Positions 6,501 through 8,749 of a stretch of 64,000 nt of DNA are shown one piece after another. The stretch lies in the NCBI GenBank assembly GCA_024180945.1, contig JAKSGN010000041.1, forward strand, positions 1,860,001 through 1,924,000, in the 5' to 3' direction. A program made the position numbers and the translations under genes. How positions within the stretch are numbered: the stretch's first letter is position 1; each line of letters begins with the position of its first letter. The notes below the pieces were generated by a model. The model was not told the origin of the DNA. It ran no database searches and worked only from the letters and a program-made list of their open reading frames with translations. Source of the DNA: Macrophomina tecta (taxonomy: Eukaryota; Ascomycota; Dothideomycetes; Botryosphaeriales; Botryosphaeriaceae).

Positions 6501-8749
6501 CATACTACCTGCCATACCTCAAATCGGCAAATGCGGAAGAACTCGCCTACACGTTCCTGAGGATAATTTTCGGCAACCACGGGTTACCAGAAGAGCTCGT
6601 GTCAGACAGGGATCGACTATTCACATCCCGATTCTGGCAAAGCCTCACTCGACAGCTTGGAGCCAAGCACAAGCTCTCAACCACGGCACACCCTCAAACA
6701 GACGGACAAACAGAACGGACGAATCAGACGCTGGAACAATACCTACGCTGCTACCTCAACTACGCACAAGACAACTGGGTTGAGCTACTACCGCTCGCAC
6801 AATTCGCGTACAACAGCTCAAAGGCGTCCGCTACACAAGAATCCCCGTTCTACGCCAACTACGGGTACGAGCCAACAGCCTACAGATATCCGATACCAAG
6901 CGAGTCATTAGCCCAAAAAGGAATCCTCAAAGCAGACCAGCTGAAGGCACTCCACGCACAACTGCACCTGGACCTCGAATTCGTAGCCCTACAAATGGGT
7001 AAATATTACAACAGACGGCACCAGGAGGCACCGAAGCTCAAGAGGGGGGATAAAGTTTACCTCCTCAGCAAAAATTTCAAACGAAAAAAGAACGACCGAC
7101 CAAGCAAAAAATTGGACTTCAAAAAAGTCGGTCCCTTCGAAATCGAAGAACAAATCGGACAGGTCAATTTCCGCCTCAAATTGCCAGACACCATGCGGAT
7201 ACACCCAGTATTTCACGTCGCCCTACTCGAACCAGCACCTCAAGACGCTACGCCACTACGCCAAACAGAGGAAATCATACCGGAAAATCCAGACGCCGAC
7301 GAAAACAAAGACGGGGACGTAGAACAAGTCCTAGACAGCGGCTACATCAACGGTCAGTTCAGATACCTCCTTAAATGGAAGGGGGACTGGGACAATACCT
7401 GGGAACCACCGGAACTCTGCGACTGCCAAGAACTCATTGATGAGTTCCATCGCCGAAACCCAGATCGACCAACACCACCGACTCGTCATACACGAAGGAC
7501 CCAAAATCAAAATCAGGAAACGGAGACTGCCGCGCCTGATTCACCAGCTCGGGACCCTCGGGCGGCGCAGCACCAGAGCCAGCGCCAGGAGAACCGACAG
7601 ACTGGGACGGACCCGCAACGGTATCAGCTGAGGCATCGCCACGTAAACGCTTTGCTTGTCGATCCTCCTCGGCGTTTTCAGGGTCAACAGGATCCCCAGC
7701 CTCGCGAGCCGCCTCCAAACGATCCAGCTCCTCAAGGTCCTCGATGGACTGCGCCTTCTTGTTCAGCATCAAGCCACCACGGCGTTGCAGTAAGACCTTC
7801 TGTTTCCGAGAACGTTCTAGACGGGACGAAGCGGCGCGCAACTCGGACGTCAGCTTGGAAATGGCATCCAAGGCCTCCACCTCATCCGCGGCAACCTTCG
7901 CAATGGCACGCTCCAGACGAACGACTAGAAGGGAAAAGTCAAAATAAGTTAAACAGGAATAAGGGGAACTCACAGTCACCCTCCTCCGCACCACTGGCGT
8001 CGCAATGGGTATTGCCACGACGAGCACACTCGCCGCAACGCGAATACCCCGGAGCGATACGACACTCCACCGCCTCACCCTTCTCCTCCAACAAAAGACA
8101 ACGAGCACAAGGAATCGGCATATCCAGGCCTAGGAGGTCATGCAAAGAATCAATCTTTGCGCCGAGATACTCACGCTCAGCTTGCTGTGCGTCGCGCTTG
8201 CGCTTGGGAGGCATTGTGGGAAACACTTACAACGAAGAGGAACGAAGAGACAAAGAAAGCCCAGAAAGATATAGACAAACGGACAAATCTTCGGGCCGAA
8301 GATCCTTAAAGGGGGGGATAGTGTTACGAACCCCCGGGGACAAGGGCTTTATGACCCCGCGGGCTGGGAGCCCGCACGGGAAAAGGCACCGCAGGGGCCA
8401 GAAACCCTCACGGGCAGCAGAGCCGCACGACCAAGGCGCCCGCACGGGAAAACCAGCCTCAAGGGAGGACGGCGCGTACGGACCCAGGCTAGGCAACAAC
8501 AGAAGCCCACACGGGAACGACGCCCACGCGGCGCAGCGACACACCAAGGGCAGAATCCCGCAGGGGAAGAATCAGTCACGGAAGTACGCTTGGCCAAACC
8601 GGGTAGTAAGTACAGGAGTATACACCCTTGCCAAGGCAGGAGATGGAACCCGGGAAACCGACTTTCGAGCACGAAGAACGAACAAGAGAAAGGCGGACAT
8701 ATCGTCCGCTCATCAAGGAAGAAGTCGGATTCCGGAAAACGGGCATTAG
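3533..8749 (+). CDS. pol: Pol polyprotein of A1 (PR-RT-RH-IN-chromodomain)
   Basis: The -1 frame entered by frameshift at 3527-3533; it has no ATG near its start (a GTG lies at 3593). Numbering from 3593: protease D35-S-G; reverse transcriptase with YLDD at 480-483; RNase H D629; integrase zinc finger H869, H874, C906, C909; integrase core D939, D1005, E1041 (DD35E); GPF module near 1180; chromodomain about 1243-1293 with W1262 and W1266. These are the canonical domains of a Ty3/gypsy chromovirus, whose chromodomain guides integration towards marked chromatin. The frame stays open far past the chromodomain, under the antisense gene, through the polypurine tract and 428 nt into the 3' LTR, ending at 8749. 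Whether the protein really extends that far is unclear. The first 20 or so codons before the protease are shared only as frameshift product. Confidence 0.93.
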   Translation, partial: LDGSPRQGPQEGPLDRSLNQVTRTANGTIPTGSNLYRLLHIPVTFCGKKAMAMIDSGAQGVFVDPKFIVKNQLPWQAKDHPYRLSTVDGSPAEYGNGWIRIETGEAPLTVGNHRERINLDVMTIPGHDIILGISWLKTHEPHISWRTETITFPDEHCRRHLATARRSQQSQKEAPEPESQSGTSEPRQRDNNVPVDIKTISYRALKLMTRRGEKAYTIYVRPSKDIEQKTLARTKRGLTDKDKDSPKPVGGDCPQRLNRRYGHPDKVGTSPLGYKSHDDKGISAAEVNADLDGIVRPTTNKAAPLPEMQNVPEDFWEFADLCEKRGKGSLPKHQPWDHEIPLIPGTHPAFKPIYSLSRTELEALREYLEKNIERGYIRPSSSPAGYPILFVPKKNGELRLCVDYRQLNDITIKNRYPLPRIDELQDKFQNAKYFTKLDLREGYHLVRMKEGEEWKTAFRTRLGHFEYTVMPFGLTNAPATFQSLVNDTLRPYLDVFCTAYLDDIIIYSETLEEHKNHIRKVLEALRGRDLRIAPDKCEWITQRTEFLGFILTPGHVSMDAKKLDAIKDWPTPKTVREVQSFLGFANFYRKFILNYAKVSTPLTDLTKKEHGFVWGDRQQIAFDSLKRMFMEAPVLGIYNPDLPITVETDASDYAIGAVLSQPDEQGRLHPIAFYSRKMSGPEKNYDVHDKELLAIVTAFKEWRHYLEGAKHQIMVYCDHKNLSHFTTTKELNRRQVRWAEELASYDMKITYRKGSENARADALSRRADHIEGKPGPQPAILDTQEDGSFIPASRSRQITAIYSIEQTWLQEGPDDSLTPVKLLAPAIRLEGNEWERKIREACADDATAQEIGELENDPRVTKNADGTILFLGLVYVPVKLREELVKDIHEAPAHGHQGTDKTTERTTRSYYFPGLRRTVQRVISQCDLCIRSKAARHAPYGSLQPLPAPKRPWQSISLDFITDLPKSREPLTKVKYDSILVIVDRMTKYAYYLPYLKSANAEELAYTFLRIIFGNHGLPEELVSDRDRLFTSRFWQSLTRQLGAKHKLSTTAHPQTDGQTERTNQTLEQYLRCYLNYAQDNWVELLPLAQFAYNSSKASATQESPFYANYGYEPTAYRYPIPSESLAQKGILKADQLKALHAQLHLDLEFVALQMGKYYNRRHQEAPKLKRGDKVYLLSKNFKRKKNDRPSKKLDFKKVGPFEIEEQIGQVNFRLKLPDTMRIHPVFHVALLEPAPQDATPLRQTEEIIPENPDADENKDGDVEQVLDSGYINGQFRYLLKWKGDWDNTWEPPELCDCQELIDEFHRRNPDRPTPPTRHTRRTQNQNQETETAAPDSPARDPRAAQHQSQRQENRQTGTDPQRYQLRHRHVNALLVDPPRRFQGQQDPQPREPPPNDPAPQGPRWTAPSCSASSHHGVAVRPSVSENVLDGTKRRATRTSAWKWHPRPPPHPRQPSQWHAPDERLEGKSQNKLNRNKGNSQSPSSAPLASQWVLPRRAHSPQREYPGAIRHSTASPFSSNKRQRAQGIGISRPRRSCKESIFAPRYSRSACCASRLRLGGIVGNTYNEEERRDKESPERYRQTDKSSGRRSLKGGIVLRTPGDKGFMTPRAGSPHGKRHRRGQKPSRAAEPHDQGARTGKPASREDGAYGPRLGNNRSPHGNDAHAAQRHTKGRIPQGKNQSRKYAWPNRVVSTGVYTLAKAGDGTRETDFRARRTNKRKADISSAHQGRSRIPENGH
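7434..8214 (-). CDS. Antisense gene of A1: six-cysteine, coiled-coil protein
   Basis: Two exons on the minus strand, 8214-7974 and 7924-7434, joined across a 49-nt intron (7973-7925) with GTGAGT donor, TTAAC and TTGAC branch-like motifs and CTAG acceptor; splicing keeps the frame and gives 243 aa. The ATG at 8214 has a CCCACAATG context, and the DNA upstream is pyrimidine-rich on this strand, as in many fungal promoters. The N-terminus starts MPPKRKR, a likely nuclear signal. Cysteines at 36, 39, 51, 60, 63 and 71 follow C-x2-C-x11-C-x8-C-x2-C-x7-C, a Zn2Cys6-like pattern with a long first loop. Residues about 82-125 look like a coiled coil; a second basic patch (KRLR, 172-175) precedes a Gly/Pro/Ser-rich, acidic tail. 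The last codons overlap the 3' end of the chromodomain coding region. Relics with the same cysteine pattern occur in A2 and A3. The function is unknown to me; a nuclear regulator of the element is one inference. Confidence 0.72.
7925..7973 (-). other. Intron of the antisense gene
   Basis: 49 nt with GTGAGT at the 5' end and TTCTAG at the 3' end when read on the minus strand, plus a short pyrimidine run before the acceptor. It separates two open frames whose offset matches an intron of length 1 modulo 3. Its signals make sense only on the minus strand, which argues that a minus-strand transcript is spliced here. Confidence 0.65.
8287..8303. other. Hairpin next to the polypurine tract
   Basis: ATCTTCGG-G-CCGAAGAT, eight-base arms around one base, standing 4 nt before the purine run. 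The same 17 bases are unchanged in the RIP-eroded A2 (17957-17973), and A3 keeps a mutated form. The sequence contains no CA or TG, so its survival under RIP is expected; but its presence in diverged subfamilies suggests a role at the 3' end of the element or in the 5' leader of the antisense gene. Confidence 0.5.
8308..8321 (+). other. Polypurine tract of A1
   Basis: AAAGGGGGGGATAG directly before the 3' LTR. It is the expected plus-strand primer for reverse transcription. A2 has the same feature before 17992 (a run of eight G). Confidence 0.9.

Follow-up and report, generated by a model that had tools for sequence, protein, structure and literature searches.

The window analyzed here is a 64,000-nucleotide (nt) stretch of the genome of the fungus Macrophomina tecta (assembly GCA_024180945.1, contig JAKSGN010000041.1, positions 1,860,001 to 1,924,000 of the forward strand); coordinates below count from its first letter. 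It harbors a recently inserted Ty3/gypsy retrotransposon that carries, on the strand opposite to gag and pol, an additional gene with a predicted intron, nested in the open pol frame. The features of the element and of this antisense gene are the following.

704..1499, plus strand: 5' long terminal repeat (LTR; TGTTACG...GTTACA), read off the window sequence
1599..3536, plus strand: gag open reading frame (ORF), 645 amino acids, matched by Pfam Ty3_capsid and Retrotrans_gag
3593..8749, plus strand: open pol frame, running across the antisense gene and ending 425 nt into the 3' LTR
7319..7456, plus strand: pol chromodomain (Pfam Chromo, PF00385, 34.8 bits against a cut-off of 25.1)
7434..7924, minus strand: antisense exon 2, with the coiled coil and an acidic tail
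7434..7685, minus strand: C-terminal tail of the antisense protein, overlapping the constrained pol C-terminus (from the ratio of nonsynonymous to synonymous differences, pN/pS, in both frames)
7716..7919, minus strand: predicted coiled coil, residues ~83-150, placed by alignment to helix 52-122 of the Thermoascus protein P0025
7925..7973, minus strand: predicted phase-1 intron, 49 nt, GTGAGT...CTAG
7974..8214, minus strand: antisense exon 1, with the basic start MPPKRKR and a six-cysteine module
8002..8109, minus strand: the six cysteines, C-X2-C-X11-C-X8-C-X2-C-X7-C, residues 36-71
8270..8273, minus strand: TATA of the predicted antisense promoter
8287..8303, no strand assigned: palindrome ATCTTCGGGCCGAAGAT, with a CGG-N-CCG core
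8308..8321, plus strand: polypurine tract, adjoining the 3' LTR (similar tracts occur in the other leaders read)
8322..9116, plus strand: 3' LTR, read off the window and from the LTR-LTR alignment

Aligned over 792 nt, the LTRs differ by one mismatch and one gap; the target-site duplication GAATC (699-703 and 9117-9121) bounds the element. Pfam matches and the LTR alignment identify gag, reverse transcriptase (RT), RNase H, integrase and a C-terminal chromodomain, flanked by LTRs, as in a Ty3/gypsy chromovirus. Joined, the two antisense exons encode 243 amino acids plus a stop codon, and all 781 nt of the gene are identical in the five genome copies that include the window's. These results confirm the minus-strand frame with its predicted 49-nt intron of the original prediction, which had been made from the letters of this stretch, and support its description of a basic, nuclear-signal-like N-terminus and a coiled coil within a chromodomain-bearing Ty3/gypsy element. 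That prediction had placed the gene between the chromodomain and the 3' LTR; this region is no gap after pol, as the pol ORF stays open across the gene and into the 3' LTR. The nesting in an open pol frame, and the palindrome and TATA that precede the gene, had escaped the original prediction. The position and orientation are those of an aORF-3R (antisense, between pol and the 3' LTR), both in the window and in the related families fam2, fam3, fam4 and fam9, which were read up to the LTR.

Searching the genome at the protein and DNA levels revealed at least eight subfamilies of the antisense protein. One copy of each was modeled, namely fam1 (the window gene), fam2, fam3, fam4, fam5, fam7, fam8 and fam9, giving products of 211 to 273 amino acids. 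In all eight models, a phase-1 intron of 44-49 nt is predicted at a matching position, after six cysteines and before a coiled-coil-like stretch, and seven of the models start with a KR-rich segment, the exception being fam9 (MPKVSSTQRR). The six cysteines are all invariant among the seven families aligned, and again in an alignment of 11 rows. Their spacing is C-X2-C-X6-C-X8/9-C-X2-C-X6/7-C in fam4, fam5, fam7, fam8 and fam9, while the first loop has 11, 11 and 15 residues in fam1, fam2 and fam3. The Zn2Cys6 spacing pattern is C-X2-C-X6-C-X5-12-C-X2-C-X6-8-C; the former five families fit it, and the window copy, fam2 and fam3 do not. The corresponding PROSITE pattern asks for R, K, H or Q at a place where fam4 and fam9 have Gly. 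The Pfam family Zn_clus (PF00172) is matched by fam9 with an E-value of 0.0055 (17.2 bits) and by fam8 with an E-value of 0.61. Among the proteins of fam1 and fam2-4, no curated Pfam family reaches its threshold, and the TRP28 domain (PF04195) is absent from their Pfam matches.

Protein searches found homologues in other fungi. The protein database matches that carry names are from Macrophomina phaseolina, Aplosporella prunicola, Botryosphaeria dothidea and Thermoascus crustaceus, a range that is a lower bound in that the search sees only relatives sharing short exact words of five residues. Because the protein has homologues in other fungi, the antisense frame is not a chance one. The Thermoascus protein P0025 (202 amino acids) has the whole architecture, and the annotated gene models of P0012 and P0018, from other fungi, join their exons at the matching place. 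An AlphaFold model of P0025, with a mean predicted local distance difference test score (pLDDT) of 74.2, has two short helices (residues 15-22 and 43-48), each starting inside a CXXC, followed by one long helix (52-122) that includes a block with a pLDDT of 95-99 across residues 61-120. A further homologue, P0022 (Botryosphaeria dothidea SLS57_006002), is a gene model that fuses an N-terminus labeled as NmrA-like with the coiled coil and tail of the antisense protein; it is either a chimera or an annotation error.

The association with pol was surveyed in 109 listed matches to the pol C-terminus, out of 714 candidates. Forty of the listed matches are free of stop codons, and an antisense-protein match adjoins 35 of these. 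For one of the remaining five (C6:870455) the antisense gene was read directly, and the other four have only a variant palindrome in place. The pol neighbor of fam7 is not among the matches listed; the fam7 locus starts with a pol tail after the chromodomain. The antisense frames are not all clean: C36:243868 contains one TAA, and the copy at C31:9575-10007 is matched in two overlapping pieces, which suggests a frameshift. A TAG in three fam3 copies falls in the predicted intron, as modeled in one copy. When 11 diverged copies were compared with the window gene, more than 80% of the changes in nine of them were C>T or G>A, 48-79% of these at CpA/TpG, a pattern as expected of repeat-induced point mutation (RIP). 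The two others, L020 and L022, show a more mixed set of changes and may belong to other subfamilies.

Selection was assessed among seven families, i.e., 21 possible pairs, with fam9 left out throughout; given the high divergence, the simple counting method and families that appear to recombine, the ratios are indicative. Over the whole gene, the ratio of nonsynonymous to synonymous rates (dN/dS) of the antisense frame, a test that the original prediction had suggested for copies of the gene, is 0.26-0.84 in 21 of 21 pairs. In the coiled-coil part, pN/pS is 0.23-0.82 for the antisense frame versus 1.02-1.89 for the pol frame in the nine of 21 pairs computed, and in all nine the substitutions peak at the third codon position of the antisense frame. 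Judged by these substitution patterns, purifying selection on the antisense frame is shown for the coiled-coil part. For exon 1, every one of the 21 pairs has an antisense pN/pS within 0.28-0.83. Intron lengths differ among families, and therefore the pol frame meets exon 1 in three registers. These registers differ in 14 of 21 pairs, for which the pol amino acids are not comparable and the antisense protein is conserved; because of this difference in register, the conservation of exon 1 in these pairs belongs to the antisense protein.

The pol frame is depleted of stop codons. Across the gene, the eight families together have one pol-frame stop codon (in fam7), versus 30.4 expected when the synonymous codons of the antisense gene and the letters of the intron are shuffled. 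The two other plus-strand frames are near expectation, with 50 stops versus 57.4 and 58 versus 53.2, and the first pol-frame stop of fam1-4 lies 191-518 nt within the LTR. Thus, we conclude that the antisense gene sits within a pol frame from which stop codons are kept out. As judged from these stop counts, openness is held in all three registers, though the pol amino acids there are little conserved. The control separates openness, which belongs to pol even across registers, from amino-acid constraint, which belongs to the antisense gene, and the locus is a strong natural example of reading frames preserved on both strands across ~780 nt. An open pol frame might, as a speculative guess, let the sense RNA be translated up to the LTR and so avoid a long untranslated 3' end.

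A conserved palindrome, CTTCGGnCCGAAG, sits between the antisense gene and the polypurine tract. Its core, CGG-N-CCG, has the half-site arrangement of Zn2Cys6 dimers. Leaders were read in seven families, the fam7 stretch being too short to reach the palindrome. Six of them (fam1-5 and fam8) have ATCTTCGGnCCGAAGAT between the polypurine tract and the ATG, and fam9 has the form TCCTTCGGnCCGAAGGA, in which both arms are altered in step, with TCC...GGA instead of ATC...GAT. The first form occurs at 164 genomic places, versus 0 for the reversed control, and 43 of the first 50 places listed precede, by less than 1 kb, an antisense-protein match in the expected orientation. The fam9 form occurs at nine places, including five fam9 copies among the pol matches listed. 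Fourteen anchored palindrome places do not start with A; the letters were read in four of these, and six of the other ten coincide with matched places of the fam9 form. In six of seven leaders, the distance from core to TATA is 14-16 nt and that from TATA to ATG is 51-59 nt. We read the palindrome and TATA leader as a predicted antisense promoter. Separately, a GTAAGT-like 5' splice motif lies 5-10 nt before the antisense ATG, both in the window (8225-8230, minus strand) and in the leaders of fam2, fam3, fam4, fam5, fam7 and fam8, with the variants GTAAAT (fam2), GTAAGC (fam3) and GTAGGT (fam8). Splicing from it to the acceptor of exon 2, if it occurs, would leave out the cysteine exon and yield a form with the coiled coil alone.

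Taken together, these parts suggest one circuit, in which a zinc-cluster-like factor is joined by a site of dyad symmetry whose arms show a matched change and by a TATA at a near-fixed distance. Our proposal is that the element encodes a zinc-cluster-like dimeric regulator that binds its own CGG-N-CCG palindrome at its own antisense promoter, and we judge the balance to tip just in favor of it. Minus-strand transcription would start between the polypurine tract and the ATG, and the antisense intron would be spliced; the six cysteines would bind zinc and the coiled coil would dimerize the protein; and the dimer would bind the palindrome, tuning both the antisense gene and transcription around the 3' LTR. 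The predicted nuclear zinc-cluster DNA-binding protein would thereby regulate the element that carries it. Repeated reverse transcription would not remove a minus-strand intron, because the genomic RNA is copied from the plus strand. A more ambitious form of the proposal is a fungal chromovirus lineage with a Gal4-like factor of its own, encoded by an intron-bearing gene antisense inside a pol frame kept open by selection, with a private promoter and a self-bound operator, in which operator and element have co-evolved and the gene core is the fastest-changing part; we advance this tentatively, and consider its chances to fall somewhat short of even.

Several observations weigh against this proposal. 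None of the eight families reaches the Zn_clus cut-off of 21 bits, the best score being the 17.2 bits of fam9; exon 1 of the window gene is without any Pfam match, even at E<=10; and the whole window protein has one weak, sub-threshold match, to Macoilin, in its coiled-coil part. The cysteine module modeled alone is poor (pLDDT 57.5). The Zn2Cys6-like label of the original prediction therefore stands for the cysteine spacing of five families and falls short in the longer first loop of the window copy and in the Pfam scores. Exon 1 cannot separate the two strands in six same-register pairs (fam1-2, 1-5, 1-7, 2-5, 2-7 and 5-7; antisense 0.28-0.80, pol 0.43-0.92), because the silent positions of both frames coincide; the seventh such pair, fam4-fam8, gives 0.67 for antisense and 1.16 for pol. 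In the tail, i.e., the last 83-90 codons, fam4, fam5, fam7 and fam8 are without antisense constraint of their own (0.94-1.07, with pol at 0.39-0.59), while fam1-3 have 0.32-0.48 for antisense and 0.61-0.86 for pol, and the cross pair fam1-fam4 (80 codons) has 0.67 and 0.92. Thus, the antisense tail overlaps a constrained pol C-terminus, and the constraint upstream of that C-terminus falls on the antisense amino acids. As to the promoter, fam5 is without a TATA at the expected place, C5:21527 (one of the four places read) has an unmatched palindrome arm, and one mutated copy has a broken core. The palindrome contains neither CpA nor TpG and so is protected from RIP, such that its survival in mutated copies proves little. 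It could also be an RNA hairpin near the polypurine tract instead.

This last possibility can be stated as a structure, in RNA or DNA, for plus-strand priming at the polypurine tract, which would be compatible with a real antisense protein. In fam1-4 and fam9, the palindrome precedes the tract by ~4 nt, and the matched arm changes fit a hairpin no less than a dimer site; the half-site arrangement of the core and the nearly fixed distance to an antisense-strand TATA speak for a regulator, and we regard the priming structure as possible, though unlikely. Alternatively, the protein may be real and nuclear and yet act on chromatin or integration, for example by partnering integrase or the chromodomain or by counteracting host silencing, with the palindrome serving another factor or RNA. 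In the elements read, pol and the chromodomain do adjoin the gene, nuclear proteins in general may have a coiled coil and a basic start, and DNA binding by the antisense protein is a prediction. Such a role does not account for the Zn2Cys6 spacing in five families, for the Gal4-type order of modules, or for a CGG-N-CCG palindrome with matched arm changes at the gene's predicted promoter, and on these grounds we consider it rather unlikely.

Two further explanations place little weight on the protein. The antisense RNA might be the functional part, pairing with sense RNA and feeding RNA interference or dampening copy number. A minus-strand transcript would indeed be complementary to pol RNA, and a review discusses antisense transcripts as sources of silencing for plant elements (PMC7264820). 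An RNA of this kind needs none of the cysteines, the intron phase or the frame, yet these are kept in eight families, and it would not set the antisense pN/pS of the coiled-coil part below 1 and that of pol above 1; this makes it improbable as the main function. Finally, the antisense frame might be merely the shadow of coding constraint on pol, which stays open here, is more constrained than the antisense frame over the last 85-90 codons of fam4, fam5, fam7 and fam8, and shows ratios under 1 as well in six of the seven exon 1 pairs of equal register. For the coiled-coil part, where the two frames have opposite ratios, and for exon 1, where the protein is conserved between families of differing pol register, this explanation is refuted, and the homologues in other fungi are recognized as proteins; for the gene as a whole, we find it hardly credible. 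The self-binding regulator remains our preferred interpretation.

Other observations concern the history of the element and its surroundings. The element looks like a mosaic: the RT stretch at 5000-5200 is 62-68% identical to fam2 and fam3, and the pol bins at 5200-7400 are 93-99% identical to fam2. Among fam1-3, the antisense core (window 7800-8200) is the most divergent part compared, with 51-66% identity, against 83-99% in the pol bins at 5200-7400, a divergence that either exchange by recombination or fast evolution could produce. A related, heavily mutated element occupies 10614-18732 and still has the palindrome (17957-17973), an antisense remnant and pieces of LTR. A solo LTR with ~99.6% identity to that of the element lies at 28109-28902 on the minus strand, and a 368-amino-acid ORF at 40724-41830, also on the minus strand, has the look of a Tc1/mariner-type transposase.

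An antisense gene in a fungal LTR element is of an already known kind. Plant elements, as well as Boty of Botrytis cinerea and Sclerotinia sclerotiorum, are described as having antisense ORFs that lie between pol and the 3' LTR (PMC7264820). The antisense gene of Boty-like elements in Botrytis cinerea, brtn, is credited to Zhao et al. 2011, Virology 417:248 (PMC7264820, PMC8365987) and is a published precedent that speaks against the original prediction, which knew of no described fungal case. It is missing from the last B05.10 annotation (PMC8365987); brtn-106 is named in a Boty-like element with a chromodomain (PMC4227169), and a Monilinia transcript resembles truncated Pol and BRTN (PMC5987419). 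The likeness to the window gene, compared by description, is that of a fungal gag-pol element with a chromodomain and an extra antisense gene between pol and the 3' LTR (PMC7264820, PMC4227169). Our protein searches, which make visible only relatives sharing 5-residue words and in which many matches are nameless, contained no proteins named from Botrytis.

Among plant elements, Grande gene23, RIRE2 and Retand with TRP28 likewise have an antisense gene between pol and the 3' LTR (PMC7264820), the antisense TRP28 ORFs of Retand being described in PMC11963269. Gene23 of Grande is described as nuclear and as having its own upstream promoter (PMC7264820; title cited in PMC11963269), and the review assigns no known function to the antisense genes of LTR elements (PMC7264820). 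The window gene differs from the plant ORFs in its conserved predicted intron, its zinc-cluster-like module and its nesting in an open pol frame. In the literature searched, we found neither the zinc-cluster-like architecture with its conserved intron, nor a palindrome whose arms change in step, nor such a nested position within an open pol frame.

Gal4-type regulators share the order of modules seen here: a zinc module, then a coiled coil, then an acidic tail. The likeness to Gal4-type Zn2Cys6 proteins (PF00172) thus consists of the cysteine spacing in fam4, fam5, fam7, fam8 and fam9, followed by a coiled coil and an acidic tail, with a CGG-N-CCG nearby; the differences are the Pfam scores below the cut-off and the longer first loops of fam1-3. 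HBZ of human T-cell leukemia virus type 1 (HTLV-1) is a bZIP protein. Its likeness to the window gene is that of a nuclear regulator encoded antisense in a retroelement (PMC11963269). The antisense promoter of HTLV lies in the 3' LTR (PMC7264820), whereas that predicted for the window gene lies inside the element, before the polypurine tract. If our proposal is true, the antisense gene would be a retrotransposon counterpart of the retroviral antisense regulators.

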